This document shows, piece by piece, positions 45,469 through 61,063 of a DNA stretch of 64,000 bases. The stretch comes from Adlercreutzia caecimuris B7 (GTDB taxonomy: Bacteria; Actinomycetota; Coriobacteriia; Coriobacteriales; Eggerthellaceae): assembly GCF_000403355.2 (NCBI RefSeq), contig NZ_KE159646.1, positions 2,221,561 through 2,285,560 on the forward strand. The letters are read 5' to 3'. Numbering within the stretch: position 1 is the stretch's first letter; every line of letters starts with the position of its first letter. Both the position numbers and the translations under genes were made by a program. Below the pieces are notes generated by a model, which did not search any database, was not told the origin of the DNA, and saw nothing but the letters and a program-made list of their open reading frames with translations.

Positions 45469-45503
45469 AAAACACGAGCGCCGCCCACAGGGGACGGCGC
45501 TCG
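45469..45503 (-). terminator. Terminator belonging to the interrupted tRNA-Gly
   Basis: On the minus strand CGAGCGCCG pairs with CGGCGCTCG, followed by TGTTTT, 11 bp after the tRNA 3' end. Confidence 0.8.
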
Positions 45504-45514
45504 ACTTGCTTCTC

Positions 45515-45559
45515 TGGAGCGGGCGACGGGACTCGAACCCGCGAATACAAGCTTGGGAA
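45515..45559 (-). tRNA. 3' fragment of tRNA-Gly(CCC): element attachment site
   Basis: On the minus strand this reads from the anticodon loop (TTCCCAA, anticodon CCC) through the variable loop, T-arm (GCGGGTTCGAGTCCCG), 3' acceptor strand CGCCCGC, discriminator T and CCA. The 5' acceptor strand, D-arm and 5' half of the anticodon stem are absent. It is the kind of remnant left when an element integrates into a tRNA gene and restores the full tRNA at its other end. Confidence 0.85.
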
Positions 45560-45600
45560 TCTCTCCCCCGGCTCTTTCCGTGCGACACCAGCGTTCTTGG

Positions 45601-45785
45601 GTGAAACAATAGTACCAGGTGAAACGGGTATTCGCGCGAAACAGACGAAACGGGAACACTCCCGGACGGGACGGAGAAACGCCGGTTTTTCCCGTCTCCG
45701 TCCCGTGCCCATCCCGTCTTCTGGGCGTTCACGAAACCCGCGCCATCTCTTGAAACAGACGCTCTGACCTCCCGATGCGGGAAAC
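45601..45785 (+). repeat. GAAAC direct-repeat array with a 12-bp inverted repeat upstream of the element parA
   Basis: Eight GAAAC copies, all on the plus strand, start at 45603, 45621, 45638, 45647, 45676, 45733, 45752 and 45781. Two extend to GTGAAAC, the chromosomal parS half-site. ACGGGACGGAGA (45666-45677) and its complement (45695-45706) form a 12-bp hairpin. The array fills the gene-free space before parA and is a candidate partition site or operator. Confidence 0.55.
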
Positions 45786-45806
45786 CGCAGAACGGAGGCA
45801 CCTATC

Positions 45807-46595
45807 ATGCCATGCAGAACCATTGCCGTAGCCAACCAGAAAGGCGGTACCGGCAAGACCGCCACCACTCTGAACCTTGGGACGGCGCTCGCTCGCATGG
45901 GCAAGCGCGTCCTGCTCGTAGACGCCGACCCGCAGGGCGACCTCACCAAGTCGCTCGGTTGGAAGGACCCCGATGCCCTAGAGTCACCGACGCTCGCCGA
46001 CCATCTGAACGCGATGATTGAGGGCACCGCCCTCGATCCCCGTGAGGGCACCCTCTCGCATGATGAGGGCATCGACCTCATGCCCGCCAACATCGAGCTC
46101 GCCGGAATGGAGATGCCCATCCTGATGGCTATGTCGCGCGAGCAGCTTGTGAACATGTGGATGTCCCCGCTCAAGGCGCACTACGACTTCATCATCTTCG
46201 ACTGCGCACCTACGCTCGGCATCATTCCCGTGAACGCATTCGTGGCATCCGACAGCGTGCTCGTGCCTGTGTCGGCCGAATATCTTCCCGCCTCCGCAAT
46301 GACAGGGCTTTTGAAGACCGTCGGGCGCGTGCGCCGCCAGATCAACCCTTCTCTCGAAGTGGAGGGCATCCTCGTGACGCTCTCAGACAGCCGCAACAAC
46401 CTCTCACACGATATCGAGCAGACCATACGTGAGAGGTACGGGAGCACCTACAGGGTGTTCGATACGGTCATCCCCCGCGCGGTCTCGGCGGCGGAAGCAC
46501 CTGCAGCCGGCATGAGCGTCTTCTCCTACGACGGGGATGGGAAGGTGGCTCACGCCTTCGAGAGGTTTGCAGAGGAGGTACTTGACCGTGGCTAG
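45807..46595 (+). CDS. parA: Element-borne ParA-family partition ATPase
   Basis: A 262-residue Walker-type ATPase with the deviant Walker A motif KGGTGKTAT at about 12-20, DADPQGDLTK and FDCAPTLGIIPV. It lacks the long acidic N-terminus of the chromosomal ParA at 4006 and is a distinct paralogue. It overlaps the element parB by 8 nt. It would stabilise the excised, circular form of the element or act in its transfer. The GAAAC array upstream may be its centromere. The start follows CGGAGGCACC. Confidence 0.93.
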   Translation: MPCRTIAVANQKGGTGKTATTLNLGTALARMGKRVLLVDADPQGDLTKSLGWKDPDALESPTLADHLNAMIEGTALDPREGTLSHDEGIDLMPANIELAGMEMPILMAMSREQLVNMWMSPLKAHYDFIIFDCAPTLGIIPVNAFVASDSVLVPVSAEYLPASAMTGLLKTVGRVRRQINPSLEVEGILVTLSDSRNNLSHDIEQTIRERYGSTYRVFDTVIPRAVSAAEAPAAGMSVFSYDGDGKVAHAFERFAEEVLDRG

Positions 46596-47532
46596 GAAGA
46601 GAGCACCCATAGAGCTACCCACAGTAGACGAGCTGTTCACGTCCCAAAGTGAGCGCGACAACGCGACCCTTGAGGGCGTTACGGAGATTCAGCTCGCGCT
46701 CATAGACCCCTTTCCCGGACATCCCTTCCATGTGAAAGACGACGAGGAGATGGAACGGCTGGCGGAGAGCATCGCCGAGAACGGCGTGCTCGTGCCGCTG
46801 ACGGTGCGCGCGTCGGGCACTGAGCGCTACGAGCTGGTGAGCGGGCACCGCAGGAAGAGGGCTGCCGAGCTAGCGGGGATTGCGAGCGCTCCCTGCATCG
46901 TGAGGTCGATGGATGACGACGAGGCCGTCATCGCCATGGTGGACAGCAACCTCCAAAGGGAGGCCATCCTGCCGAGCGAGCGGGCGTTCGCTTATTCGAT
47001 GCGGCTTGAGGCGATGAAGCACCAGGGGCTGCGCACCGATCTCACTTCTGCGCAAGTTGCGCAGAAGTCGAGCGGCAGGTGGTCACGCGACATTCTTGCC
47101 GAAGAGCTGGGAGTGAGCAAGGACAAGGTGCAGCGCTTCATACGCTTGACCCACCTCATCCCCGAACTGCTCGCACTCGTGGACGAGGGGCGCATGAAGA
47201 TGCTCCCGGCCGTCGAGGTGAGCTACCTCTCGCAGGAGGAGCAGACGTGGCTCTTCGATGCCATGGGAGCGCAGGCCTGCACGCCCTCCCACGCCCAGGC
47301 CGTCAAGATGAAGCGCTACTCCAAGGAGGGCTCGCTCACATCCGCCCTCGTGCGCTCCATCATGGAGGAGGAAAAGCCCAACCAGGTCGAGCAGTTCAAG
47401 ATTCCGAGGAAGAGCATCGCTCGGTTCTTCAGGCCGAGCGCCACGAGAGACGAGATAGAGAGCCGCATCGTGCGCGCCCTGGAGCTGCTTGAGCAGGCCG
47501 AGGCGAGGCGCGGCAGGCAGGGCGGTGCATGA
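46588..47532 (+). CDS. parB: Element-borne ParB-family partition protein
   Basis: A 314-residue ParB/Spo0J-like protein. An N-terminal ParB domain shows PFPGHPFHVKDDEEMERLAESIAENG and the CTP-site variant SGHRRKRAAELAG (GHRR for GERR). A helix-turn-helix region (LAEELGVSKDKVQRFIRLTHL) and a basic C-terminus follow. GTG 46588 is chosen because GAGGAGGTAC precedes it. It overlaps parA by 8 nt and its end overlaps the start of the next gene (ATGATG). Confidence 0.9.
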   Translation: MARKRAPIELPTVDELFTSQSERDNATLEGVTEIQLALIDPFPGHPFHVKDDEEMERLAESIAENGVLVPLTVRASGTERYELVSGHRRKRAAELAGIASAPCIVRSMDDDEAVIAMVDSNLQREAILPSERAFAYSMRLEAMKHQGLRTDLTSAQVAQKSSGRWSRDILAEELGVSKDKVQRFIRLTHLIPELLALVDEGRMKMLPAVEVSYLSQEEQTWLFDAMGAQACTPSHAQAVKMKRYSKEGSLTSALVRSIMEEEKPNQVEQFKIPRKSIARFFRPSATRDEIESRIVRALELLEQAEARRGRQGGA

Positions 47533-48758
47533 TGGGCAACGTGATGCATCGCGGCAAGGGGTCCTTCACCTTCGTGGAGAACACGATCTTCTTCGACCAC
47601 GGTCTCTCGGCGAAGGCCAAGGGGATCTACTGCCAGATACGCTCGCTTGAGAACAACCCGGAGTGGGTGTTCACCATCAAGGGCTTCGCCTCGCTCGTGC
47701 GCGACGGGGTGGATGCAGTGACGGCGGGCATCAGGGAGCTTGAGGCCTCCGGCTACATCATCCGCGCCCGCAAGCGGAGCGTGAACGGGCGCTTCCTCAA
47801 GGCCGAGGAGGCCACCTGGATAACGCTCGACGACCCCGCCATGCACGGCGAGGTGTCCGCGGAGCTCAAGGCCGACGGCTTCGCCATCCTCTCCGAGTTC
47901 ACCCGCGAACCCGCCGCCAACGTGGAGGTGGAGCTCGCATCTCCGAGCATCGGCGAAACAGGCGAAACCGACGAGAGTTCCCAGGTCGAGACCAGAACGG
48001 GAAAACCCGTATCTGGGAAAGCCACATCTGGGGAATCGGCCCCTATAAATCACTCATCCGATAAAGGGCTTGATTCCGATAAACGACCCCTCTCTTGTCC
48101 CCCCGACGACTCGGGCGGGAACGAGAAGGGCCGAGATGATTTCGTGGCGTATCGGAAGGGCGAGTTCCCGGAGGCCTTCGAGCGGCTGTGCGCCATGTCC
48201 ATCAAGCCGGTCGCGTCGCTGCGCTTCAAGCGCGACTGCCTGGCGGCTTGGGAGCGAAGGGTGGCGCAGGGCTTCGTACCGGAGCACATCATCGAGGCCT
48301 ATGCCGCCTACGCCAAGAGCTATTGGCTGCGGAACGGCGACGACGTGACGCTCGCCAAGAACCTCGCGCGGTGGCTCGAAGGGGAGGGAGGGCTCTCGGC
48401 CTACGCCGACGAGCCGATACCGCCCGACCTGCTCGATGCGGACGGTGAGCCATTGGATATGCCTGGGCTTGCGCAGGCCGACCCCGACTTCGCGAAGCTC
48501 TGGCGGCGCGTGGAGACGCAGCGCTGCGTGATTCGCTCGACCATGGCCATGGGAGGCGATCTGCCGCCGGAGGAGGATGTGCTCGCCGCCTGCGAGGCCG
48601 ACGAGCGCTACCAGCGCTACCTCTCCGTCTGCAAGGAGCGGCACGGGCGCTATCTCAAGGTGATCGAGCTGTTCGGGAGCCCCAGCGCCAGCCTTGTGCG
48701 GGCGAGGGAGGAGGCTGTGGCTCTCGGCGCCATGCCGTTCGGAGGGAGGCTTTCATGA
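47529..48758 (+). CDS. Winged-helix replication-initiator-like protein
   Basis: A 409-residue protein. The N-terminal 115 residues resemble the winged-helix domain of plasmid and phage initiators (LSAKAKGIYCQIRSLENNPEWVF, then a helix-turn-helix and ELEASGYIIR). A polar, low-complexity linker follows. The C-terminal half has a conserved-looking helical region (EAFERLCAMSIKPVASLRFKRDCLAAWERRV) of the DnaD-like kind. It starts inside the parB stop region, completing a partition-replication operon. Initiator function is inferred, not shown. Confidence 0.65.
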   Translation: MMGNVMHRGKGSFTFVENTIFFDHGLSAKAKGIYCQIRSLENNPEWVFTIKGFASLVRDGVDAVTAGIRELEASGYIIRARKRSVNGRFLKAEEATWITLDDPAMHGEVSAELKADGFAILSEFTREPAANVEVELASPSIGETGETDESSQVETRTGKPVSGKATSGESAPINHSSDKGLDSDKRPLSCPPDDSGGNEKGRDDFVAYRKGEFPEAFERLCAMSIKPVASLRFKRDCLAAWERRVAQGFVPEHIIEAYAAYAKSYWLRNGDDVTLAKNLARWLEGEGGLSAYADEPIPPDLLDADGEPLDMPGLAQADPDFAKLWRRVETQRCVIRSTMAMGGDLPPEEDVLAACEADERYQRYLSVCKERHGRYLKVIELFGSPSASLVRAREEAVALGAMPFGGRLS

Positions 48759-48814
48759 GGACGTTGTGGAAGTTCGCGAAGTGGCTCTTCCGCGCTGTGT
48801 TCCGCTTCATGTGA
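48755..48814 (+). CDS. Candidate 19-residue cationic amphipathic peptide
   Basis: A very short frame encoding MRTLWKFAKWLFRAVFRFM. It has an excellent ribosome-binding site (GGAGGGAGG, spacing 6) and its ATGA overlaps the upstream gene's stop, so translation would be coupled. Lysine and arginine alternate with large hydrophobics, which would give a membrane-active amphipathic helix. Such peptides occur as small toxins or membrane regulators. Expression is not shown, and it may be a chance reading frame. Confidence 0.5.
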   Translation: MRTLWKFAKWLFRAVFRFM

Positions 48815-48900
48815 GGCCGCAGATGCGGCACCGTGACCACTTGCGATCGAAGGCGTTCTGCTCAAAGGATGCAGTTTGCGGAAGAGGTCTGCGGGCAGTT

Positions 48901-49001
48901 TATAATGGATTGCGTCACCCTAATCGAATAAGTACGTCAATTACCAGGCCGAGGGGCATCTGCCGTTTGGGTAATTGACGTACATTTCCCAACAGGGTGA
49001 C
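48901..49001 (+). other. TATAAT box followed by a nested 88-bp inverted repeat
   Basis: TATAAT at 48901-48906 lacks a good -35 (TTGCGG 19 bp upstream). From 48914 to 49001 two perfect dyads are nested. The outer is GTCACCCT/AGGGTGAC (48914-48921, 48994-49001). The inner is GTACGTCAATTACC/GGTAATTGACGTAC (48932-48945, 48970-48983) with a 24-nt loop. It could be a structured RNA start, a replication origin or a recombination site. It sits in the 260-bp gap between the peptide frame and the gene at 49078. Confidence 0.6.
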
Positions 49002-49077
49002 AACTGAGGTGGATGCCTCTCATCTGAAACTCGTGGGGCTACCATCTTCCTTATCCCGAATACGGAAAGGTGGCCCC

Positions 49078-49287
49078 ATGGCAGCAAGCGCAGAATACGC
49101 CCCGCCGAAAGAGCTCGTCAATGTTATGGTGCAATCCTCCGAGAAACTGGAGGGCGCAGCCTCGCTTCTGACGATGCTCGAAGACAAGGCCGACAACCGG
49201 AGGATAACCGCCTCCGAGCTGGCAGCGGTGCGCTGCATCGTGGAAACCTGCGCGGCGAACCTCGGCGGAATCCTGGAACATGCCTAG
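49078..49287 (+). CDS. Small hypothetical protein
   Basis: A 69-residue protein, unrecognised, predicted all helical (PKELVNVMVQSSEKLEGAASLLTMLEDKADN, ITASELAAVRCIVETCAANLGGILEH). Two helices with hydrophobic spacing suggest a dimeric or partner-binding helical hairpin. ATG 49078 is chosen because GGAAAGGTGG precedes it; the frame continues upstream to 48997 but without a site. It lies downstream of the nested inverted repeat and may be transcribed from the TATAAT at 48901. Confidence 0.55.
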   Translation: MAASAEYAPPKELVNVMVQSSEKLEGAASLLTMLEDKADNRRITASELAAVRCIVETCAANLGGILEHA

Positions 49288-49366
49288 ATAAAACTAGAGC
49301 CAGTCCCAGCAGGACCGGCCCTTACAAAACCTTGCGGTTTTTGAATCTGCAATTATGATGGCATCC

Positions 49367-50377
49367 TCAGGCTGTCTTGTCAATGAGGTCGGCGAGAAAC
49401 CGCAGATACGATACGAATCCGTTTTGATTCCCGTATCTTTCACAGGTATCAAGGAGCGCAACCCGGAGCTCTGACAGCGCATCTGCCGTTGAGGTAGATA
49501 GAGCCGCACCGTCCAAACGACCGAACATGACGAGGGTTTCGAGCAGCTGCTGGATGCGCCTGTTCTTGAGCTTGGCACGTCTCGTTTTACTGTTGGGAAC
49601 ACCGTTGTCGTTTAGCCAGGCGTAGACGAGGCTGGACAGCGTGTAATCAGACTCGTAGCTCTTTTCCATCCCGTTCAGTATGCAGCTCCCATGCGAGCAG
49701 CAGTTGCGCACGGATTTGACGCCCTTGAGGATGTAATGCTCCTCCCGCATTGCGGCATCTTCCCATCGTTCCGAACAGAATAGGTAGAAGGCGAGCAACG
49801 TTCCGAACGTGACCACCTCCAAAAACGCCCATACAGGCATTGCACCACTATAGTGCGCGATGATCCTTCCGGAGTAGACGTCGCCCTCGATCTCTGCACC
49901 CATTCGCAAAGACAGGTCTCGCTTGATATAGCCCTGATAGCGGCCCTGCTGCGATTCCATGAAGTCGGCCACTATACCGTAGCCATCCTCTCTGGGGTCT
50001 TCCGATATGCGAGTTATGATAGCCGTCTTTGCGAGCCGTTCCACGTCTTGGGCCGCGAGCAGGAACGTGCAGCGAATCTCGTCATCGAGTTCGTTCAGGG
50101 CGGACAGATCGGCGAAGTCCAGTGCCACATATCTGCCCTTGTCTTGGCCCTCTGCGTGCTTCTGGAACAGTCGGCGACATGAGGCAAGGTGCATGAACGT
50201 ACCGCATCTCGACAGCGCCTCGATGGCCTGCTTCTCGCTGCAGCGCTCGAACGTGACGCCCTTTGTCTTCAGCAACTCGACCTGCTCTTCCGGCGTCAGC
50301 ATGGGCTTGAGGTTTCGCGCCTCGTGCACGCCCTCGCCTATTCCCCACGCGGTGTATGTCTTCTCCTTTTCTTTCAT
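49367..50377 (-). CDS. Abi-family (Abi_2/AbiD-like) abortive-infection protein
   Basis: A 336-residue protein of the Abi_2 group, whose members protect against phage by damaging infected cells. The N-terminal LTPEEQVELLKTKGVTF and the helical core fit the family. The HEPN-type motif RNCCSHGSCILN (RNxxxH) near residue 228 would be the RNase centre. It is the only leftward gene in this part of the element and stands alone. A TAGAAT box ends only 6 nt before the ATG. Confidence 0.78.
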   Translation of the reverse strand: MKEKEKTYTAWGIGEGVHEARNLKPMLTPEEQVELLKTKGVTFERCSEKQAIEALSRCGTFMHLASCRRLFQKHAEGQDKGRYVALDFADLSALNELDDEIRCTFLLAAQDVERLAKTAIITRISEDPREDGYGIVADFMESQQGRYQGYIKRDLSLRMGAEIEGDVYSGRIIAHYSGAMPVWAFLEVVTFGTLLAFYLFCSERWEDAAMREEHYILKGVKSVRNCCSHGSCILNGMEKSYESDYTLSSLVYAWLNDNGVPNSKTRRAKLKNRRIQQLLETLVMFGRLDGAALSTSTADALSELRVALLDTCERYGNQNGFVSYLRFLADLIDKTA

Positions 50378-50543
50378 GCCTCTATTCTAGGCGAGCCGTC
50401 CTCGCCCAGAAACCATGCGTTCCCGAAAGCGGAACATCGACGCAACGGGGCGGCTTCCCTCAGTCGCCACCCGACCCCCGCAGCCAGGGCCCCGAGCCCC
50501 CGGCGGCCTTGATGCCCGGATGCTCGGCCGGGAACCGGGCGGC
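50378..50543. other. Gene-free spacer before hairpin A
   Basis: A GC-rich spacer between the divergent Abi gene and the ParB-like gene. I see the Abi promoter at its left edge and no gene. Its last 60 bp are weakly similar to the sequence before hairpin C. Confidence 0.4.
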
Positions 50544-50639
50544 GCGCAAGGGCCGCGAAAACTTTTCCGCGCGGGACGCTTCCTTCCAGGTCCTCCGGAA
50601 AACTCAAGCCCTTGCGGGTTTCGCATTCCCCCCTTGCGC
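50544..50639 (+). repeat. Hairpin element A (of three): candidate single-strand promoter
   Basis: Three stems nest in order: GCGCAAGGG with CCCTTGCGC at the base, GCGAAAAC with GTTTCGC, and TTTTCCG with CGGAAAA at the tip. The 3' base of the hairpin is 80 nt before the ParB-like gene at 50720. Sequence and structure recur at 52741 and 53812. Confidence 0.75.
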
Positions 50640-50719
50640 GTCTCCCGAACCCCGTCCGGTGCACGGGCCACAAGGCCCGCCCAGAGGGGGCGGGCCGAAC
50701 CGACAAGGAGGTCGAAATC

Positions 50720-52078
50720 ATGGAAACGACAAGAATCCCGCTCTCCCAGTGCGTCGAGAGCAGCTACCAGAACCGAAAGGAGCTGGGAGACGTTTCCGGG
50801 CTCGCTCGCAGCATCGAGGTGAACGGGCAGATCACGCCGCTCATCGTGGTGGCTGACGGCGAGGCCTACCAGCTCGTCGCGGGACACCGGCGCACCGCCG
50901 CCATGAGGACGCTCGGACTCGAAGAGGCCGACGCCTACGTGATGGACGGCTGGGACGACGCCAGGATCGCGCAGATCCTCAACGCCGAGAACAACCACCG
51001 CAAGGAGCTCACCGAGGCGGAGCGCGGGCGCGGCATCCAGACGATGCTCTCGCTGGGAGTGCCGGTCACGGACGCGGCGGTGAGCGCTGACATCCCCGAG
51101 GACAAGGCCGAGTCCTACGTGCGGGGCACGAAGGTCGTGCCCGTGGACGCCGTGAACTTGGACTTCGAAGCCGTGGCCCTCATGGGCGACTACGACGACG
51201 TGCTCACCGAGGACGACGTGGTGGCTGTGCTCTCCAAGAAGAGCTTCTGGGACCGCCAGGCGATCTGCCGCAAGGCACGGGCCCGCGCGGCCGCCGAGGA
51301 GGAGACGGCACGGCTGGAATCGCTCGGCGTCAAGGTGGTCGACAAGGACTCCCTCGGCGAGGGCTACCACGGATGCAACGGCGAGTGCGGGCATCCCGGC
51401 CTCGTGGCCGTCGTGAAGCCCCAGGCCTGGGGTGAGGGCGCCGATACCACCTTCTACTGCGACGACGAGGCCCACGACTGCCAGCCCACTCCCGAAGAGA
51501 TTGCGGAGACGGAGGCCTACCTCGGGCGCAAGGCGACGCTTGAGGCCATGGACGGGCGAATCGCGGAGTTCGCCAAGTCCGCCTACCCGAAGTTCCCGGC
51601 CAAGGGCCAGTCGAAGCTGCGCCAGTGGGCGCACGAGGCGTTCGAGGCCTACTACAAGTGCGAGCCCAGCGACGCCTGGGAGGGCTTCAAAGAGTCGCGG
51701 GCCAAGGCGCTCGACCAGTTCATCCTGATGCGTACCGTCCCCGCCTGCGTGCCCAGTCTTCCCGACCGCACCCTAAAGTGCGACTACGAGCCCTGGTCCT
51801 ACGACGTGGACGACCTGCTCGGGTTCGTCTCCTTCGTGGACGACGTGCTCATGCCCGCAGGATATGAGCTCTCCGAGGAAGAGCGCGACCTGATGGACCA
51901 CCTCCACGGAATCTTCGCCGCCGAGGACGAGGACGAGATCTTCGGCGAAGGCGACGCCGAAGCCGATGCGCCCGATGCCGACGACGAGCCTCCCTTCGAC
52001 GTTGACGAGCAGCCCCTTGATGGGCCGCCGTTCGACGTGGAAGAGGAAGGCGATGCCGTCCTGGCGATGGCGGCCTGA
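50720..52078 (+). CDS. ParB-like N-terminal-domain protein of the element leading region
   Basis: A 452-residue protein. The first 120 residues form a ParB/Srx-like domain (RIPLSQCVESSYQNRKELGDVSGLARSIEVNGQITPLIVV, then the nucleotide-site variant AGHRRTAAM). The middle is helical and charged. The C-terminal 60 residues are highly acidic with a repeated PPFDV motif. Similar ParB-like proteins are common in the leading regions of conjugative elements. ATG 50720 follows ACAAGGAGGT. It lies 80 nt after hairpin A. A role in protecting incoming DNA is inferred. Confidence 0.78.
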   Translation: METTRIPLSQCVESSYQNRKELGDVSGLARSIEVNGQITPLIVVADGEAYQLVAGHRRTAAMRTLGLEEADAYVMDGWDDARIAQILNAENNHRKELTEAERGRGIQTMLSLGVPVTDAAVSADIPEDKAESYVRGTKVVPVDAVNLDFEAVALMGDYDDVLTEDDVVAVLSKKSFWDRQAICRKARARAAAEEETARLESLGVKVVDKDSLGEGYHGCNGECGHPGLVAVVKPQAWGEGADTTFYCDDEAHDCQPTPEEIAETEAYLGRKATLEAMDGRIAEFAKSAYPKFPAKGQSKLRQWAHEAFEAYYKCEPSDAWEGFKESRAKALDQFILMRTVPACVPSLPDRTLKCDYEPWSYDVDDLLGFVSFVDDVLMPAGYELSEEERDLMDHLHGIFAAEDEDEIFGEGDAEADAPDADDEPPFDVDEQPLDGPPFDVEEEGDAVLAMAA

Positions 52079-52088
52079 CGCTCCTTCC

Positions 52089-52130
52089 AGCCGCCCGGCC
52101 AGACAACGGGTCGGGCGGCCCCTTCTCTTC
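52089..52130 (+). terminator. Terminator-like hairpin after the ParB-like gene
   Basis: GCCGCCCGGCC pairs (with a G-T step) with GGTCGGGCGGC, followed by CCCCTTCTCTT. Confidence 0.55.
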
Positions 52131-52158
52131 TCATCCTCACCGACAAGGAGGTACCGAC

Positions 52159-52635
52159 ATGAAACGCACGCTCGATGTGATGGTCGTGCCCGTGGGCCGC
52201 GAACCCGAGCTCAAGACCCTCGAATCCGACGAGAACGGCAGCTTCCTCAAGGCGCTCCAGGGCTGCGTTGGCGGCTTGATCGAGCCGCTTCCCTGGCTCT
52301 TCGGCGACGCGCCCGCGGGCTACTGCAACGAGGAGGGGGCGCTCGGCGCGACCTTCCTCGACGCCAACCGTGCCGTCTATGCAGACAAGGCCATGGAGGA
52401 CGCCGGGTTCCTGAGCCAGCTTGACTTCAGGACCCCCGTGCGCGAGGGCGACCTCTACGCCATCGTGTTCGGCGACATGGTGTTTACCGGGTTCGACCCC
52501 GATACGGGAGGAAGCCGCGACATCTCACCCGAGGAGTGCGAGCGCGTCCGCGAGCGCTTCGGGGGCGCGGAGTCCATCGACTCTGGCGCGAGCGAGCTTC
52601 TGTTCCTCGCCCGGTCCGGCAGGCCCCGCCGATGA
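52159..52635 (+). CDS. DUF3846-type hypothetical protein
   Basis: A 158-residue protein that I match to DUF3846 by its opening (KRTLDVMVVPVGREPELKTLE, then LQGCVGGLIEPLPW) and overall length. The function of this family is unknown. It is frequent in conjugative elements of Firmicutes and Actinomycetota. The acidic segment and the GFDPDTGGSRDIS region are conserved-looking. ATG 52159 follows ACAAGGAGGT, the same leader as the upstream ParB-like gene, and it lies 80 bp after it. Confidence 0.72.
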   Translation: MKRTLDVMVVPVGREPELKTLESDENGSFLKALQGCVGGLIEPLPWLFGDAPAGYCNEEGALGATFLDANRAVYADKAMEDAGFLSQLDFRTPVREGDLYAIVFGDMVFTGFDPDTGGSRDISPEECERVRERFGGAESIDSGASELLFLARSGRPRR

Positions 52636-52740
52636 AGCGCTCCGAATGGATGACGCCTTTCCCGAGGCCTCCTCCCGGCATCTGCCCCTCCCCACGTGGC
52701 GTCCACCTTGGGCGCAGGCTGCCCGGGACGGCGCCCGGGC

Positions 52741-52823
52741 GCAAGGGCCGCGAAAAACCTTCCGCTGAAAGAACACGCTCGTGACCGGAAGCTCAGGCCT
52801 GCGGTTTTCGCTTCCCCCCTTGC
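52741..52823 (+). repeat. Hairpin element B (of three)
   Basis: GCAAGGG with CCCTTGC at the base, GCGAAAA with TTTTCGC, and CTTCCG with CGGAAG at the tip. Compared with elements A and C, the T-A pair in the last stem has become C-G on both sides, a compensatory change. It ends 80 nt before the gene at 52904. The wider 52636-52903 gap holds no gene. Confidence 0.72.
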
Positions 52824-52903
52824 ACCCGAACGCCCTCCCGAGCGGTCGCCGACCCAAGGAGGCGCCCCGAAAGGAGGGGCGCCGCGAACATCAGGAGGTC
52901 ATC

Positions 52904-53626
52904 ATGGGAAATCGAGCCGTCATCACCACGCCCGAGCGCAAGGTCGGCATCTACCTGCACTGGAACGGAGGGCGCGACACCATCGAGCCGCTGCTCAAGT
53001 ACTGCGAACTGCAGGGCTATAGGCCGCCGAGCTCGGACGAGTACGGCCTCGCCCGCATCTGCCAGGTGATGGGCAACTTCTTCGGAGGCTCCCTCTCGCT
53101 CGGCGTCGGCGCCTACACCACCGATCGGCAGATGGATCCCGGCGACAACGGCATCTACATCGTTGAGGGGTGGCGCATCGCAGAGCACCTGCGGACGGAG
53201 TACGATGCGGATTGGAACCCCATCGGGATGCGCTCGTTCGGGCCATCCGAGGAGGAGGACTGGCACCAGTTCGACGACATGCTCCGCAGCTTCGACGCTT
53301 CCATGCCCGAAGAGCTTCGCCTCGGCGAGTTCCTGGACTCGGTGGAGGTTCCGGCAAGCGAGCTTCAGGTCGGCGACGAGGTGTGGATGTTCGACAGCGT
53401 GTACGGCAGGTGGGAATCCTTCCCGGTCATCGGCTTCGGGCAGCCCGAGTTCAACCGCATCGCGGTGGAGGTCGAGGCTGCGAATGGCAGGAAAAAGATC
53501 ACCTACCCCGACCTGCCATACGTGGCCATGTGCGACCACGACGGTGACTTCTCGTGGAACTGCAACAACTACGTCCACGGCGGCATGGCCCGCATCCGCC
53601 CGAGAAATGAGCAAGTCGCAGCCTAA
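52904..53626 (+). CDS. Hypothetical protein of the element leading region
   Basis: A 240-residue protein that I do not recognise by name. It begins MGNRAVITTPERKVGIYLHWNGGRDTI and contains ICQVMGNFFGGSLSLGVGAYTTDRQMDPGDNG, a pattern seen in many mobile-element proteins of unknown function. The C-terminal third has a beta-rich stretch (SEVQVGDEVWMFD-like LQVGDEVWMFDSVYGRW). ATG 52904 follows CAGGAGGTCATC; the longer frame upstream runs through hairpin B. It has its own hairpin element and terminator, so it is a separate unit. Confidence 0.68.
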   Translation: MGNRAVITTPERKVGIYLHWNGGRDTIEPLLKYCELQGYRPPSSDEYGLARICQVMGNFFGGSLSLGVGAYTTDRQMDPGDNGIYIVEGWRIAEHLRTEYDADWNPIGMRSFGPSEEEDWHQFDDMLRSFDASMPEELRLGEFLDSVEVPASELQVGDEVWMFDSVYGRWESFPVIGFGQPEFNRIAVEVEAANGRKKITYPDLPYVAMCDHDGDFSWNCNNYVHGGMARIRPRNEQVAA

Positions 53627-53645
53627 GCGCTCGCAACTCCATCGA

Positions 53646-53681
53646 AGCCCGTCGGCCATCCGGTCGGCGGGCTTTCCCTTT
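53646..53681 (+). terminator. Terminator after the gene at 52904
   Basis: AGCCCGTCGGCC pairs with GGTCGGCGGGCT (G-T wobbles allowed), followed by TTCCCTTT. Confidence 0.72.
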
Positions 53682-53811
53682 GCCTCTCTTGCTCTAGCTT
53701 GCGTGAAGCCTCTCTCCTTCACTGCCCTTCATCTCGTATGGCCAACAACCTCCGCATCCGGTCGGCCCCTCCCGCCTCTGATCCCGCATGCTCGCCGAGA
53801 ACCGCGCGCCC

Positions 53812-53905
53812 GCGCAAGGGCCGCGAAAACTTTTCCGCAGGGAGCGCTCCTTCCAAGGCCTCCGGAAAACTCAAGCCCTTCGGGGTTTCGCTCCCTCCCT
53901 TGCGC
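53812..53905 (+). repeat. Hairpin element C (of three)
   Basis: GCGCAAGGG with CCCTTGCGC at the base, GCGAAA with TTTCGC, and TTTTCCG with CGGAAAA at the tip. About 75% of the positions match element A over 150 bp. It ends 78 nt before the YraN-like gene at 53984. The rest of 53682-53983 has no gene. Confidence 0.75.
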
Positions 53906-53983
53906 GGCTGCCCGAACCTCGGACGGCAGACGGGCCACGAGGCGGGGCAGAGGGCCCGGCCGGCAAGACTTAGGAGGTCTACC

Positions 53984-54418
53984 ATGAGCAATCTGAACGA
54001 CAAGGCGACGAAAGCAGCGAGCCGCTACCTGGAGCACCGTGGGTACACCGTGCTGGAAACTGCCTGGAAGTGTCCGGCCGGGACGTGTGACGTGATCGCC
54101 GAGGACGGAGACGCCATCGTGTTCGTGGACGTGAGCGCGCGCCGCGACGCCGACAAAGGGTTCCCGACCGAGCGATGCAGCGCAGGTGTGCGGGAGCGCC
54201 GCGAGATGGTCGCGCTTGCATGGTTCGCCGAGCACGAGGACGCCGTGGACATGGCGGTGCGCTTCGACAACATTGCGATGCTCGTCATGGGCGATAGCCG
54301 AGCGATGATACGCCACCACCTGAACGCCCTAGGCGGAGCCATCGAGCAGCTGCAGCCGCGCGCGGCAGCGGGCATCCCGACCGGCACCGACCTTCAGACC
54401 CTCCCGGAGGCCGCTTAG
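53984..54418 (+). CDS. YraN/UPF0102-like protein with an altered nuclease site
   Basis: A 144-residue protein that follows the YraN plan: a basic helical start (KATKAASRYLEHRGYTVLETAW), then a restriction-endonuclease-like core. YraN usually has GEIDLI and FVEVKxR. Here they read GTCDVI and FVDVSARR, so the D remains, the E is D and the catalytic K is S. It may bind DNA without cutting it. ATG 53984 follows TTAGGAGGTCTACC. It lies 78 nt after hairpin C. Confidence 0.72.
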   Translation: MSNLNDKATKAASRYLEHRGYTVLETAWKCPAGTCDVIAEDGDAIVFVDVSARRDADKGFPTERCSAGVRERREMVALAWFAEHEDAVDMAVRFDNIAMLVMGDSRAMIRHHLNALGGAIEQLQPRAAAGIPTGTDLQTLPEAA

Positions 54419-54445
54419 ACCTCCTGGCCTCCATCGCGAGGGGCG

Positions 54446-54477
54446 AGCCCTCCGATCTTCGGGTCGGAGGGCTTTTC
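54446..54477. terminator. Bidirectional terminator between converging genes
   Basis: AGCCCTCCGA pairs with TCGGAGGGCT over an 8-nt loop, followed by TTTTC. It overlaps the stop codon of the leftward gene. Confidence 0.88.
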
Positions 54478-54917
54478 TATGTTCCTTCGATGGGGACGTT
54501 GCGCCGCTTTGCCAGCACGTTCAGCGCGTCCACTATCCTTTCGGCCTCGTCGATTCCCACGGGAACGAAGGCGCTGACGCACTTGTCTTCGATGGGCTCC
54601 TCGGCGGAGTTATCGCATTTGCGAGAAGGCTTGGCGACCTCTTCGAGAGACACCACGCCGTCATGGATTATCCTCTCGACGTACCACCCCGTATCGTCGT
54701 GCCAGATGAACCGCTCGCGTCCTCCCATCATTACGGTGTAGCGCAGTCCGTGCCCGCCCACTTTCATGCTGGCAGCGTAGCGCTGCTCCACCACGCGGTC
54801 GATGCCGAACACACGCCCGTCCTCCCAGACGACTGCCAAAGGCTCCACGCGTCCGTCAACGTCGTGGTCGGCTATGACCTCGACGTAGCACTTCTCCCTG
54901 CGCTCTATCCCTCTCAC
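54477..54917 (-). CDS. Hypothetical protein of the Y-family polymerase operon
   Basis: A 146-residue protein, not recognised by name. The first 85 residues look like a small beta-barrel (YVEVIADHDVDGRVEPLAVVWEDGRVFGIDRV, YTVMMGGRERFIWHDDTGWYVER). The rest is polar. Small proteins of this type often accompany UvrX/ImpB-like polymerases on mobile elements. It starts 13 bp after the polymerase stop codon and shares its LexA-type promoter. A role as polymerase partner is inference from position. Confidence 0.68.
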   Translation of the reverse strand: MRGIERREKCYVEVIADHDVDGRVEPLAVVWEDGRVFGIDRVVEQRYAASMKVGGHGLRYTVMMGGRERFIWHDDTGWYVERIIHDGVVSLEEVAKPSRKCDNSAEEPIEDKCVSAFVPVGIDEAERIVDALNVLAKRRNVPIEGT

Positions 54918-54930
54918 GATGATCTTTCGC

Positions 54931-56208
54931 CTACCTGTGGAAGAAGCTCACCGGGTGAACCGTGTTGTCGCGTTTCGCATCCATGGCGAGTGTGTCGGGG
55001 CACCATGCCTTCGGTCCCCACACCACGGCGTTGTTGCCGAAGCGGCGCCGCAGGTCGTCCACGGCGGCGTCAAGTGCCTCCATTTCGGTGCGGCGCGGAA
55101 GCGGGTCGAACAACGAGAGCTGGATGTCCTCGTTTGTCGGTACGAGGTTGGAGGCTCGCACGTGCAGCCCCCGCACCGGCGCATCGGGCGAGAAGGTGCG
55201 TACCTGCTCCATGAGATTCCATGCCATGCCTGCCACCTCGGAGGTTATGTTCGTGGGCGTGCGCAGTGTCGACTGGCGTCCTGACGACGCGAGGGTCCCA
55301 GCGTCACGCACGGCCACGGCGATCGTCCTCGCTCTAGCCCCGCCCTCTCGCATCCTCTGGGCCACAGCTTCCGAGAGCATCCACGTAACCGCCTTCGCGG
55401 TGGAGACGTCCACTATGTCCCTCGGGAAGGTGATGCCGTTGCCATAGCTCTTCACCTCGCGGCACACGTCGTTGCGGCCGGGGTCGAGCCTCTTCACCTC
55501 GCTTGAGTCCTCGCCTCTCGCGAACATTTTGAGCACGAGCCCCATCTTCCCGAGCCTGCGCTTGAGGAGCGTATCGGAGGCGCAGGCGAGGTCGCCGATG
55601 GTGAGGATGCCGGAGGATCGCAGCTTGCGCTCGGTGGCCTCTCCCACGTAAAGGAGCTCTCGCACGGGGGCGGTCAGAAGGTGTTCCCTCGCGAACTCCT
55701 CGTCAACCAGCGTCACCGCGTCGGGCTTCTTCCAGTCGCTTCCGAACTTCGCGTATATCTTGTTGTCGGAGACGCCCACGCTGATAGTGAGGCCCAGCTC
55801 CGCCTTCATCCTCTCGGAGATTTCCTCGGCCATCTGCAGCGGCGTGAGTCCGAGGCAGCCGCAGGAGCCGCCCACGTCGAGCCAAGCCTCGTCTGGCCCA
55901 AAGGGTTCCACGCGGTCGCTGTAGTCGTAATAGATGGCCCGGGCGAGCCCCGACGCCCTCATGTACATTCGGTAGTCCGGCCGCACGACAACGAGCCCGG
56001 GGCACTTGCGCCGCGCTTCCACCAATGTGTCCGCCGTCTTGATCCCGGCTGCCTTGGCGAGGAGGTTCCGCGCCAGGACGATGCCGTGGCGGGCCTCCTC
56101 GTCGCCGCCCACAACCAGGGGTACCCCTCGCAGCTCCGGATGCGCCTGGCATTCGATCTGGGCGTAGCAGCAGTTGATGTCGCAGTGCAGGATGGCACGG
56201 CCAGTCAT
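54931..56208 (-). CDS. Y-family (DinB/UmuC-like) translesion DNA polymerase
   Basis: A 425-residue error-prone polymerase for copying damaged DNA. The N-terminal ILHCDINCCYAQIEC has the first catalytic aspartate, and GPDEAWLDVGGS carries the second acidic pair in altered form (the usual SIDEA/SVDEA reads GPDEA). NKIYAKFGSDWKKPDAV and the little-finger region follow. QLSLFDPL near the C-terminus (QLSLF) is a sliding-clamp-binding motif. ATG 56208 follows AGAAGGTCGCT. A LexA box lies in its promoter. Confidence 0.9.
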   Translation of the reverse strand: MTGRAILHCDINCCYAQIECQAHPELRGVPLVVGGDEEARHGIVLARNLLAKAAGIKTADTLVEARRKCPGLVVVRPDYRMYMRASGLARAIYYDYSDRVEPFGPDEAWLDVGGSCGCLGLTPLQMAEEISERMKAELGLTISVGVSDNKIYAKFGSDWKKPDAVTLVDEEFAREHLLTAPVRELLYVGEATERKLRSSGILTIGDLACASDTLLKRRLGKMGLVLKMFARGEDSSEVKRLDPGRNDVCREVKSYGNGITFPRDIVDVSTAKAVTWMLSEAVAQRMREGGARARTIAVAVRDAGTLASSGRQSTLRTPTNITSEVAGMAWNLMEQVRTFSPDAPVRGLHVRASNLVPTNEDIQLSLFDPLPRRTEMEALDAAVDDLRRRFGNNAVVWGPKAWCPDTLAMDAKRDNTVHPVSFFHR

Positions 56209-56254
56209 AGCGACCTTCTTTCGCCATTGGTTTCCTATGCGCTGCGAGACTGTC

Positions 56255-56276
56255 ATTATATGCGAACATAAGTTCG
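56255..56276 (-). promoter_or_regulatory. LexA-type SOS box and -10 of the polymerase operon
   Basis: CGAACATAAGTTCG at 56263-56276 matches the Gram-positive LexA consensus (CGAAC-N4-GTTCG). Read leftward, a TATAAT (56255-56260) lies 2 bp downstream of it. Repressor binding would block the promoter, so the operon should be induced by DNA damage. Confidence 0.85.
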
Positions 56277-56376
56277 ATTGATAGCGAACGAATTATGGAT
56301 TTTCGGCACACGCGATTCGGAATTGCGCTTCTTCATGTCGGCGAGTGTTCAAGATTCTCGCAGCAAAGCAAGAGGC

Positions 56377-56556
56377 CTATTCCGTGTACACAGTCCACGG
56401 AATAGCTCTTGGCCGCCGAGCGCCATCGTTCGCAAACGATGACCTTTGGCATCGTCTCGGGCGGTCTCGCCATGAGGACGAACCTTCCCGAAACGATACG
56501 GCGGCATCGCTCGCCTCGCCGCGCTCGGCTACGCTCTTCGCGGGGGATTCCCCGCG
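56377..56556. other. oriT: oriT-like region: three hairpins upstream of mobC
   Basis: Three inverted repeats lie in the 416-bp gap before mobC. They are CTATTCCGTG/CACGGAATAG (56377-56405, 9-nt loop), CATCGTT/AACGATG (56424-56441) and CGCGGGG/CCCCGCG (56539-56556). Relaxase-MobC genes usually sit next to their oriT, and nic sites follow such repeats. The nic base itself cannot be placed. Confidence 0.55.
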
Positions 56557-56624
56557 CCCCTCCTAGAAGCGTCGGCACGAGCCTCCTTGGAAACCCAACT
56601 CGGAAGGAGGCCCGAGCCGACGCG

Positions 56625-57035
56625 ATGGAGCGCCATCCCAAGCAGATCCACGTGCGCATGTCGGAAGCCGAGGTCGAGCGGGCCAAGCGCCTCGCGGGAG
56701 ACACCGGCATGACGCTCTCCGACCTCATCCGCGTCCTCCTGCAGATGCCCGCATCCTCCGTCGGCGAGGGCGGCCGCCTTATCGTCATCGACAGGACAAC
56801 CGCCGCGAAGCTCGCCCGCGAGATGCGGAGGTGGGGCCATCACTACAACCAGGCCGTGCACGCCCTCAACGCGATCGCCTACTACCTCCGCGCGAACGAC
56901 ATGGACGCCCCCGACGTGTTGGAAGAACTTGATCGCGCCTCGGGCAAGCTCGCGGCCATGCAGCCGGGCGTCGAGGCTCTGCGCCGAAACGTCGAGGACG
57001 TGGCGGGAAGCGTCGTCGCGTCACTTGGAAGGTGA
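56625..57035 (+). CDS. mobC: MobC-type plasmid mobilization relaxosome protein
   Basis: A 136-residue accessory protein that helps a relaxase open oriT. The N-terminus is a ribbon-helix-helix-like region (KQIHVRMSEAEVERAKRLAGDTGMTLSDLIRVLL). The C-terminal half carries the MobC pattern LAREMRRWGHHYNQAVHALNAIAYY. ATG 56625 begins MERHPKQ; GGAAGGAGG lies 14 bp upstream. It is followed 4 bp later by the relaxase gene, the standard order. Confidence 0.88.
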   Translation: MERHPKQIHVRMSEAEVERAKRLAGDTGMTLSDLIRVLLQMPASSVGEGGRLIVIDRTTAAKLAREMRRWGHHYNQAVHALNAIAYYLRANDMDAPDVLEELDRASGKLAAMQPGVEALRRNVEDVAGSVVASLGR

Positions 57036-57039
57036 CACC

Positions 57040-58248
57040 ATGCCGATGCTCAAGACCATCGCGGGGCACACCTCGGCGAGAGGCATCTGCCGATATCTCA
57101 CGCGCAAGAACCGCGCGCTCGCCAGCGACTACATCAACATCGACGTTCCCGAGGGCATCCGCGAGTTCGACTGGGCGAAGGCGATGGACGCCACGCGCCG
57201 CTCCTTCGGAAACGACCTTCCCTGGCGAGGGAAGCGGGTGCGCACCTACAAGCACTACGTCGTATCGCCCGACCCCAAGGACGGCATCGCGCTCGAAGCC
57301 CTGCGCGATCTCGCGACCTCGTGGGCACAGGAGCACTTCTCCGAATACGAGGTGGCCATCGTCTACCACGACGACAACGAGCACGGCATCCCCCATGCGC
57401 ACGTGGTCGTGAACAACACGAATATAGAGACAGGGCGGCGGCTCCAAGACCCCGACCCCAAGGCCCTGGCCGCCTCGCTCCAAGAGCTCGCCGAGGCGCG
57501 AGGACTCACCGCCTTGAGGCCGCCGCAGGCGACGGGCGTGGCGGCGCGTGCCCAGAGGCGCACTCCGAAGAGGACGCCCGAGACCTTTCGGAGCGAGTAC
57601 GTGCGCCGAGCGGAGCAGGAGCTCACCGAGCGCGGCGAGTACTCCTGGACGGCGGACATCCGTGCCCGCGTCCGCATAGCCCGCACGGTGTCGAGGAGCG
57701 AGGCGGAGTTCCGCAGCATCCTCGGCACCATGGGCGTGACCGTGGCCGACAACTCATCCAAAGCAGAGCGGCGGGACTGGATATACGCGCTCGCGAGCCA
57801 TCCTTCGAGAAGGATCTCCGGGGAGCGCATGGGGCTCGCCTACGGGCGCGAGCGACTTGAGCCGCTGCTGCGCTCAGGAGGTGCGAGGAGGTTCGAAGAC
57901 GCCGGGGAGCGCGCCATAGCTGCCATAGCGAAGCGGGCCGTCATGGTCGGTGACCTCGCGGAGCTGCGAAACCTTTCCGGGGCGGTCGCGCTCATTGAGG
58001 CCTCTCATGCCAGATGTCTTGACGACTTGGATGCGCTTCTGGAGAAGGGCGGGGGCGAGGCGACGCCGCAGCTCGTCGGCTACGTCAAGGATAAGAGGCT
58101 TCTGCCCAAGGAACGGCCCGCGCCCGTCACCAGGAAGCCCACGGCAAGGGCAGGCATCCGTCCCGCCGTAAGTCGGCCGAAGAACGATGCGGCGCAACCC
58201 ACCCATCAGAGTATGCAGGACAAGCGAAGAGAGAGGTCCGAGAGGTGA
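57040..58248 (+). CDS. mobA: Relaxase (MobA/VirD2-like, MOBP-type)
   Basis: A 402-residue DNA-nicking enzyme that would cut oriT and lead the transferred strand. The N-terminal region includes GHTSARGICRYLTRK with the candidate catalytic tyrosine. The metal-binding third motif is intact as HDDNEHGIPHAHVVVNN. The C-terminal half is basic and variable, with no primase domain. ATG 57040 follows TTGGAAGGTGACACC. Its stop overlaps the GTG of the next gene. Confidence 0.9.
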   Translation: MPMLKTIAGHTSARGICRYLTRKNRALASDYINIDVPEGIREFDWAKAMDATRRSFGNDLPWRGKRVRTYKHYVVSPDPKDGIALEALRDLATSWAQEHFSEYEVAIVYHDDNEHGIPHAHVVVNNTNIETGRRLQDPDPKALAASLQELAEARGLTALRPPQATGVAARAQRRTPKRTPETFRSEYVRRAEQELTERGEYSWTADIRARVRIARTVSRSEAEFRSILGTMGVTVADNSSKAERRDWIYALASHPSRRISGERMGLAYGRERLEPLLRSGGARRFEDAGERAIAAIAKRAVMVGDLAELRNLSGAVALIEASHARCLDDLDALLEKGGGEATPQLVGYVKDKRLLPKERPAPVTRKPTARAGIRPAVSRPKNDAAQPTHQSMQDKRRERSER

Positions 58249-58757
58249 TAATCAAAGCCTACTACTCCGGTGGGCGCATCGACGTGTTCGACACGGACCG
58301 CATGACCGACGGTGTGCCGCAGCCGGGAAACCTGCTCACCAACTACACCCTCGACCTCTCCGACGTGAACGGCGAGAGCCTGTGGCTCTGCTCCTACTAC
58401 TACGAGGCAGCCCCGGCGTATAAGGATGAGAAGGGGCCGAAGGACCTTCCCGTGGCCCGCAGGCGCGACGGCTGGAGCTTCCTTCTCGCCGATGCCGAGG
58501 ACATGCAGAGGCTCAATCGCGTCACGTTGGACGGGGAGACCGTGCTCGCGCAGATGGCCGGCGAGCTCGTGGACGTGTCGGCGCTGTCGTGGGCGTCCGA
58601 GGTGGCCGACGTGCTCGCTCCGCAGGTCGCGCAATTCCATCATCTTTTGGAGTCAACTGGGGCAGAGCGAGTCGAAGACCTTGGCATACCCGCAACCATC
58701 TTGCAGGGAATCGCATCGTCTTGCGAACGGGAAGAAAGTAGAGAGCCGCGTTTTTAA
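58245..58757 (+). CDS. Hypothetical protein coupled to the relaxase
   Basis: A 170-residue protein, unrecognised. The N-terminal 110 residues look globular with beta strands (IIKAYYSGGRIDVFDTDRMTDG, LWLCSYYYEAAPAYKDEKG, RRDGWSFLLADAEDMQRLNRVTL). The last 45 residues are predicted helical and may derive from a fusion with the adjacent cassette. Its GTG start overlaps the relaxase stop (GTGA), so the two are translated together, and a mobilization role is likely. Confidence 0.65.
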   Translation: MIIKAYYSGGRIDVFDTDRMTDGVPQPGNLLTNYTLDLSDVNGESLWLCSYYYEAAPAYKDEKGPKDLPVARRRDGWSFLLADAEDMQRLNRVTLDGETVLAQMAGELVDVSALSWASEVADVLAPQVAQFHHLLESTGAERVEDLGIPATILQGIASSCEREESREPRF

Positions 58758-58791
58758 CGACCGCGATACCAGCCAAAGAGGACGGCAGCGG

Positions 58792-59034
58792 TATAATGTA
58801 ATTGCAATAGTCACGGAAGCAAGGAGGTCTTCCGGATACGTCAGGTGACGCGGAATCGGCGTTGCGGGCGTAACTGGAAAGGGCAGATAAGTCATAACTC
58901 AATGAACGTCACCGCTGTCGAGCGGTTCGTTTGTTGGTTGACTCTGCCCTAAGTCCTTTTCCTGTTCCGAGAAGCATTTGGCCGCAGAGTCTCCCCTGCG
59001 GCTTTGTTGTTTCAGGAAGGGAAAGGATTGACCC
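58792..59034 (+). promoter_or_regulatory. Leader region with candidate leader peptide and attenuator before the methyltransferase
   Basis: TATAAT at 58792-58797 begins a roughly 220-nt leader. AAGGAGG at 58821 precedes a small frame from GTG 58845 or ATG 58902 to the stop at 58950-58952. The shorter version encodes MNVTAVERFVCWLTLP. A terminator follows (GCCGCAG/CTGCGGC, 58981-59003, then TTTGTTGTTT). TCCTTTTCCTG (58954-58964) could pair with CAGGAAGGGAAAGGA (59013-59027), which contains the gene's ribosome-binding site. The layout fits ribosome-stalling control. Confidence 0.6.
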
Positions 59035-59880
59035 ATGTTTGACCGGCTGCTTGAAGAGGCGCTTCGCAAGCCAGCTCCATATGAGCGCACCGACGATCTA
59101 TTCTGGAGCGATCCCCACATCTCGACTCAACTCCTGAAAGCGCACCTTGACGAGCGCAACCCCTTGGCCAGTCGAAGCCCCGAGTTCATCGAGCAGTCTG
59201 TGGCATGGATCGAGAGCTGTGCGCCTCAAGTCACGCACCCCCGTATTCTCGATCTGGGATGCGGGCCCGGACTTTATGCCGCTCGCCTCGCGCGACGCGG
59301 CTATTCCGTTACGGGCATAGACGTTTCCCCCGCCTCTCTGGCGTATGCGAAATCGTGTTCGGAGGCCGAGGGCTTGGATGTCGAATACATCGAAGGCGAC
59401 TACCTCGACGCGGAGCTTGGAGGCCCCTACGACGTGGCCCTCATGGCGTATTGCGATTACGGCGCGCTGTCGCCAGACGAAAGGCTCGGCCTTCTCGACA
59501 CGCTGCACAGGGCCTTGAGGCCAGAAGGCGTATTGATCCTCGACGTATTCGCCGATGCGCATTACGAAAACGCCTTCAATCGCTCTAGGTGGGAAGCATC
59601 ATCGAATGGCGCGTTTTGGCGGCCCGATGCCTACATCTGCTTAGAGCAGCAAACCCTCTACCCGCCGAACGTCATTCTCGACAGGTATCTCGTTCTTTCA
59701 ACGGCGGGGACCAAGAGCTACAACGTGTGGACGACTTGCTTCGACACCGCATCGCTTCAAGACGAAGCTGTCGCCGCCGGCTTCGACGCAGTGAGTTTTG
59801 CGGCCGACCTGACTGGCGCTCCGCCAGCCGAAGCGAGCAAGACTTTAGCAGCCGTTCTGCGAAAACAAGAGACGCGATAG
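59035..59880 (+). CDS. Class I SAM-dependent methyltransferase
   Basis: A 281-residue methyltransferase. The SAM-binding loop ILDLGCGPGLYAARLARRG is at about 71-89, followed by VTGIDVSPASLAYAK and the acidic region YDVALMAYCDYGALSPDERLG, ending with LRPEGVLILDVF. The substrate is unknown. No rRNA-methylase signature (Erm NPPY) is seen, so a small-molecule substrate is as likely as RNA. The start follows AGGAAGGGAAAGG. The attenuator-like leader suggests induction by a translation inhibitor. Confidence 0.8.
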   Translation: MFDRLLEEALRKPAPYERTDDLFWSDPHISTQLLKAHLDERNPLASRSPEFIEQSVAWIESCAPQVTHPRILDLGCGPGLYAARLARRGYSVTGIDVSPASLAYAKSCSEAEGLDVEYIEGDYLDAELGGPYDVALMAYCDYGALSPDERLGLLDTLHRALRPEGVLILDVFADAHYENAFNRSRWEASSNGAFWRPDAYICLEQQTLYPPNVILDRYLVLSTAGTKSYNVWTTCFDTASLQDEAVAAGFDAVSFAADLTGAPPAEASKTLAAVLRKQETR

Positions 59881-59908
59881 CGACCCGCGCTTTGCCTTTT
59901 GCGAGAAG

Positions 59909-60217
59909 GTGGCCAATCGAGAAAAAGATCACTTTTGCCCAGACGGGGCGCATTCTATCCTTGTGATATCGAGGCTAAATCGCGTGCGCCTCGAACATGG
60001 CATGAGCGTTTCGGAGCTTGCCCGTCGGACGGACATCGACAAGAAACGGCTCTGGTACATCCTCGATGGGCAGCGCGAGATGCGCGTCGAGGAGTTTCTA
60101 AGGCTATGTGTCGTCTTGAAGATGGATCCTCGCAGCTTTGTGACCCGCGAAATGATCGAGGAAGTGGCCGAGGCGACGAGGCAGAGTATCGGTCGCAGCG
60201 ATAATCCGAACACATAG
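59909..60217 (+). CDS. Small Xre-type helix-turn-helix protein (copy 1)
   Basis: A 102-residue DNA-binding protein. The helix-turn-helix region SVSELARRTDIDKKRLWYILDGQREMRVEEFLRLC is followed by LKMDPRSFVTREMIEEVAEATRQSI. It is a close paralogue of the protein at 63230, and even the following terminator is shared. GTG 59909 begins VANREKDHF; the true start may lie later, because the first 25 residues are not shared with copy 2. It is spaced 28 bp from the methyltransferase. Confidence 0.78.
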   Translation: MANREKDHFCPDGAHSILVISRLNRVRLEHGMSVSELARRTDIDKKRLWYILDGQREMRVEEFLRLCVVLKMDPRSFVTREMIEEVAEATRQSIGRSDNPNT

Positions 60218-60220
60218 AGC

Positions 60221-60250: not shown

Positions 60251-60278
60251 ATTATCCATCCCTTTCCGCCAGCGCAGG

Positions 60279-60432: not shown

Positions 60433-60464
60433 GTAAACAATATTCTAAAAGGAGATGAGCCGCC

Positions 60465-61055: not shown

Positions 61056-61063
61056 GAGGGGCC

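Follow-up and report, generated by a model that had tools for sequence, protein, structure and literature searches.

An integrative and conjugative element of Adlercreutzia caecimuris that splits a host tRNA-Gly gene and carries a probable replacement

The 36-kb element whose left end lies at positions 45515–45559 of the analysed DNA is an integrative and conjugative element (ICE). Judging from sequence, it very probably cuts its target tRNA-Gly gene upon integration and makes up for this with a replacement gene of the same anticodon. Here, the window denotes the whole 64,000-nucleotide stretch, which corresponds to G000:C1:2221561–2285560 of a 2.96-Mb genome; adding 2221560 to a window position, or to its equivalent downstream of the window, gives the position on contig C1. 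The 60 kb following the window were also analysed. In the mechanism that we propose, tyrosine recombination takes place inside the anticodon loop of the host tRNA-Gly(CCC) gene. The overlap between attP and the tRNA is only ~10 bp, so that, as the sequence shows, the gene is split, its 5′ half ending up on the right and its 3′ half on the left, with neither junction restoring it. Next to the integrase, the element carries an entire tRNA gene with the matching anticodon, which would then make good the loss, provided that it is expressed and functional. Successive elements may split the tRNAs that earlier elements brought as cargo, and such a tRNA may outlive its element as the only host gene for that anticodon; in both cases the arrangements are seen in the genomes, and their order is our reconstruction.

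The split tRNA gene and the element between its halves

The minus strand at 45559–45515 reads TTCCCAAGCTTGTATTCGCGGGTTCGAGTCCCGTCGCCCGCTCCA and corresponds to the 45 nt of a tRNA-Gly(CCC) from the anticodon loop to CCA. It is followed by the G+C-rich terminator-like hairpin and T run of the split gene (~45470–45511, minus strand), and the first-pass annotation had thus read this part of the sequence correctly. Neither ARAGORN nor Rfam scored a tRNA at 45515–45559, indicating that the 3′ piece is a fragment. The match is far beyond chance, because the intact tRNA-Gly(CCC) genes of genomes of the same genus have a 3′ part with 100% identity to the piece, and because a matching 5′ half is present on this strand at a distance of 35.9 kb. 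The earlier proposal that a mobile element has its left attachment site here was also right. The distant 5′ half forms the right junction (C1:2303017–2303056, window-equivalent 81496–81457, minus strand), 17.5 kb past the window. With both ends located, the integrated element occupies 45560–64000 of the window and continues to C1:2303016 (window-equivalent 81456). Sequence comparison shows that the two halves have in common only a 10-bp attachment core, TTCCCAAGCT, sited in the anticodon loop, with the left copy at 45550–45559 and the right copy, outside the window, at C1:2303017–2303026, both on the minus strand. Joining the halves yields a full tRNA-Gly(CCC), the anticodon stem of which pairs as CAAGC/GCTTG; each half alone forms no tRNA. 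Over 75 nt, this joined tRNA does not differ from the intact gene of G003, G006, G007 and G008 or from one of the G001 copies. The reconstructed attP, that is, the predicted circular junction (...GGGGGAGAGA-TTCCCAAGCT-GTTGCACTACC...), holds the core only.

The sole intact tRNA-Gly(CCC) gene of the genome is located inside the element. This cargo gene (C1:2302755–2302830, window-equivalent 81195–81270, plus strand) lies 45 bp past the end of the tyrosine integrase gene and has its own promoter-like box and terminator. It is inverted relative to the split tRNA, the 5′ half of which lies ~190 bp further on, on the minus strand, and its anticodon stem, CTGGC/GCCAG, is unlike that of the split gene. 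Being a separate gene with a different stem, the cargo is a second tRNA carried by the element, and the tRNA that the element entered is not restored.

The 35.9 kb between the tRNA halves encode the integrase, relaxase, T4SS coupling protein and ATPase that identify an ICE, the VirB4-like ATPase being assigned on weak Pfam matches. Next to the left end are genes for a ParA-type ATPase (45807–46595, plus strand; Pfam AAA_31, 3.7e-46) and ParB (46537–47532, plus strand; ParB_N, 2.1e-19). These are followed by an Abi_2-like abortive infection protein (49367–50377, minus strand; Abi_2, 1.7e-17), a Y-family DNA polymerase of the ImpB/MucB/SamB type (54931–56256, minus strand; IMS, 7.1e-35) and a MobA/VirD2-type relaxase (56929–58248, plus strand; Relaxase, 3.7e-14). 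Beyond the window, we identified the VirB4-like ATPase (C1:2293039–2295546, minus strand), a VirD4/TraG coupling protein (C1:2296353–2298203, minus strand), an excisionase-like HTH protein with a match below the cut-off (C1:2300952–2301335, plus strand) and the 471-aa tyrosine integrase (C1:2301298–2302713, window-equivalent 79738–81153, plus strand; Phage_integrase, 8.5e-8). The element also encodes an NlpC/P60 lytic enzyme and a TrbL/VirB6-like protein, the latter matched below the cut-off. Since no phage structural matches were found among the proteins scanned, which cover most ORFs, and conjugation genes are present, the element is not a temperate phage. Other genes on the element include one for a 1299-aa repetitive surface protein (63527–64000, minus strand, extending to C1:2288986), which by eye is SpaA/Cna_B-like, and dispersed paralogous short HTH (Cro/XRE) genes that share nearly the same core sequence (59909–60217, 63200–63463 and L007:13459–14221).

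Conservation of the arrangement and agreement of anticodons

Scanning of the genome collection revealed three relatives of the integrase (45–47% identity), in Slackia equolifaciens, a Collinsella MAG and Gordonibacter pamelaeae. In each, int is shortly followed by a tRNA-Gly(CCC) and then by the core and a tRNA-Gly 3′ half. Within the order, 24 out of 397 genomes contain the integrase, complete or in part. At every locus read, a tRNA-Gly comes after the integrase, the one in G088a being itself split, and the int–tRNA–att linkage is confined to ~500 bp in every readable member. A host tRNA-Gly half is located 169–202 bp beyond the cargo in 18 of the 21 tabulated loci; the other three are represented by a split cargo, a locus abutting another element and a relic. 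The host half is inverted in G000 and in G084, which has a 71% identical integrase, and lies on the same strand elsewhere. Both ends could be located on one contig for seven elements of 36–80 kb (G000, G002, G093, G098, G102, G271 and the TCC element of G024). In all seven, the joined ends form a tRNA and the separate ends do not, with a core of 10–17 bp. Outside the order, no integrase relative was matched at E≤1e-50 in 396 other genomes sampled over the phylum, and none was found in plasmids (E≤1e-20) or in IMG/VR and phages (E≤1e-15). Only distant phage integrases were recovered, with 21–31% identity among the matches listed. Three genomes belonging to different genera, G001, G098 and G118 (L116, L117, L118), have identical integrases as well as identical cargo tRNAs, which suggests recent transfer between genera. 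Near-identical integrases with identical cargo are also observed across families, in Collinsella, Slackia and Gordonibacter (L121/L041, L115/L040, L119/L042).

The element ends are further marked by arm-type repeats. On the left, TCCCGT occurs three times with 11-bp spacing (starting at 45690, 45701 and 45712, span 45690–45717, plus strand), and on the right a TCCCGT pair is found at ~90 and 102 bp from the core. The relatives G002, G093, G024 and G102 have TCCAGT instead and G098 has GACGAAC, at comparable distances at the two ends; G271 has a TCCGAAC pair on the right end only. Thus, in 6/7 elements pairs of repeats are present on both ends, with the motif changing in step between subfamilies. 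Because these repeats flank the reconstructed attP, they support the placement of the element ends independently of the tRNA.

With glycine tRNA anticodons typed from the search hits, the anticodon of the cargo agrees with that of the split target in 18/18 readable elements, comprising 14 CCC and 4 TCC. The integrase tree requires at least two changes for the TCC state, forced by well-supported branches, and both times cargo and target changed together. One of the changes falls between 71%-identical integrases, and we consider the G000/G084 pair telling. In an independent-pairs test of anticodon co-switching, 2/2 pairs were concordant, which is too few events for significance. In the genomes with CCC elements that were checked, the glycine tRNA hits typed, besides the cargo, were only TCC and GCC. 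In G024, the TCC tRNA is split, and no other intact TCC copy is present among the glycine tRNA hits typed. tRNA-Gly(UCC) is the expected reader of GGA, and a TCC cargo should therefore be required. For CCC, the sister genome G005 is instructive. It retains the 5′ half (G005:C1:198572–198611, L190) and part of the element; the 3′ half, the cargo and a tRNA-Gly(CCC) were not found there, the glycine tRNAs among its 48 tRNA hits being TCC and GCC only. G005 is thus a natural loss of tRNA-Gly(CCC), and the CCC tRNA is not strictly required, presumably since GGG can be read by Gly(UCC) as well. Accordingly, the argument for necessity rests on the TCC elements. In L106, L113, L115 and L120, the CCC cargo resembles tRNA-Gly(UCC) in its body, e.g. 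GTTCAATGGTAGAAC, which suggests that the anticodon of the cargo switched from UCC to CCC.

Several other explanations of these arrangements were considered. In a classical tRNA-targeting island, attP includes the 3′ part of the tRNA, the gene is restored at one end and a 3′ fragment is left at the other. Such an island would account for the 3′ fragment on the left and, on the right, for a tyrosine integrase with an intact tRNA-Gly(CCC) beside it, and the first-pass annotation had predicted just this, together with a ~45-bp direct repeat of the 3′ segment at the right end. The integrase is indeed found at the right end next to an intact tRNA-Gly(CCC); this tRNA, however, turned out to be a gene in its own right, encoded on the opposite strand and differing in its anticodon stem, and not the target restored at the junction. 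Moreover, no 45-bp repeat is present: the long repeat of a classical attL/attR was searched for past the window and is absent, the direct repeat being only 10 bp. The annotation had named a right end lacking the repeat as an outcome that would speak against it, and the right junction proved to consist of the 5′ half of the split tRNA, which refutes the classical island model for this element. In relatives too, a tRNA is obtained from the joined halves and from no single end, making this explanation exceedingly improbable. To an assembly artefact or a chromosomal inversion between two tRNA genes as the source of the halves we give virtually no credence: although cargo and target are inverted in G000, the same architecture recurs in independent assemblies, including the single-contig G098, G102 and G271, the target is mostly on the same strand, and 7/7 joined ends yield a tRNA.

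The loss of the CCC tRNA in G005 is compatible with two further possibilities. The intact tRNA might be a second native host gene, an old duplicate beside the integrase, so that integration destroyed one dispensable copy. We find this highly unlikely, as a tRNA-Gly with the matching anticodon follows the integrase in every genome found, across families, the same integrase and cargo are shared by different genera (G001/G098/G118), and in 22 element-free genomes the native CCC genes have no upstream integrase remnant, except for one weak match in G014. Alternatively, the cargo tRNA might be kept for codon supply or for resistance to a tRNA-cleaving defence, its match to the target being a by-product; defence-resistant tRNAs have been discussed for phages (PMC10865867). 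This, too, is improbable, given that the anticodon switches with the target and that G024 has a split TCC gene without another intact copy.

Comparison with known systems

Replacement of a split tRNA by a carried one is a strategy known from phages; what appears to be new here is its conservation in a family of conjugative elements. In tRNA-dependent lysogeny, proven by genetics for phages Fionnbharth, LeBron, Gaia and BrutonGaster (PMC10865867, Guerrero-Bustamante & Hatfull 2024), a tyrosine integrase likewise acts on an 8–17 bp core in a tRNA that is not reconstructed, the phages carry a tRNA of the same isotype, and among related phages switched targets go with switched tRNAs. In Gaia, the tRNA is located downstream of int, as in the ICEs described here. 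However, the carriers there are temperate phages, for which lysogeny is at stake, whereas the present family comprises Coriobacteriales ICEs with a relaxase, coupling protein and ParA/ParB. Furthermore, Gly(CCC) and Gly(TCC) are targeted in that study only by reconstructing phages but are split here, and among the phage matches listed, none is closer than ~31% identity to our integrase. Chains of cargo splitting, seen in the ICE family, are undescribed in PMC10865867. According to the passages devoted to them in PMC10865867 and PMC11476347, Lj965 of Lactobacillus johnsonii and some prophage-related sequences of Sinorhizobium meliloti inactivate a tRNA and replace it with a carried isoacceptor; as presented there, these are prophages, in contrast to the ICEs analysed here. 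Integration of classical tRNA-targeting ICEs and islands has been reviewed as reconstituting the tRNA (PMC8371274). They share with our family the tyrosine integrase, the anticodon-loop crossover and arm-type sites, but restore the tRNA at a junction, whereas the family does not, its attP holding the core only. In the open-access literature, we found no published ICE with tRNA splitting and replacement.

The authors of PMC10865867 asked how common the mechanism is beyond actinobacteriophages. The family described here points to a fixed strategy of conjugative elements in Coriobacteriales, including the gut genera Gordonibacter, Slackia and Collinsella, with two glycine tRNAs as targets, and offers a testable route for the horizontal replacement of a core translation gene. 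It also carries a warning: since the core is only 10 bp, such elements are invisible to island finders that look for long direct repeats of tRNA.

Layers of elements and altered cargo

In G000, the C-terminal remnant of an older integrase of the family (C1 ~2303127–2303454, minus strand), lies just upstream of the promoter of the split tRNA, and the split tRNA therefore probably arrived as the cargo of an earlier element. G004 and G005 likewise have such a remnant at their 5′ halves. Cargo splitting is seen in G088, where element L110 has a split cargo tRNA and the matching 3′ half terminates a second element, L120. Furthermore, a cargo-type tRNA lies behind an integrase remnant in G004, G024 (CCC) and G088:C42. 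A region of G001 (G001:C1:215948–325180, L192–L194) seems to contain two tandem elements, bordered by a tRNA 5′ half on one side and by an intact tRNA-Gly(CCC) on the other, the latter resembling a cargo 5′ half fused to a host 3′ half.

The anticodon stem/loop does not match the attachment core in the cargo of 5 out of ~13 lineages, compared with 0/24 native genes (Fisher p 0.003, with lineages grouped by us from the tree and relatedness uncorrected). A GGC stem does occur among the native genes that other families of the order possess. Among the loci compared, no altered cargo was seen split, and we hypothesize that the altered core protects the cargo from the integrase. Host tRNA genes might thus be replaced serially, each newcomer cutting the resident gene, native or earlier cargo, and installing its own, which in some lineages would be altered in the core and protected from the integrase; we regard this as a real possibility without favouring it. 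The integrase-protected replacement tRNA could then be likened to the recoded rescue gene of a cleave-and-rescue drive. If serial replacement did occur, the tRNA-Gly(CCC) or tRNA-Gly(UCC) of the host would be element-derived, and an element could not decay without loss of the tRNA.

Elsewhere in the G000 genome, a 2.7-kb relic (C1 ~2318301–2320997, L008:13002–15698) contains, besides an AlbA/Schlafen-like gene and the left end of an element, a third tRNA-Gly(CCC) 5′ half. We considered whether this third half represents an earlier layer at one and the same site and rejected this as the main account, since the genes flanking the relic are adjacent to each other in G004 and G005, which marks it as an ectopic relic.
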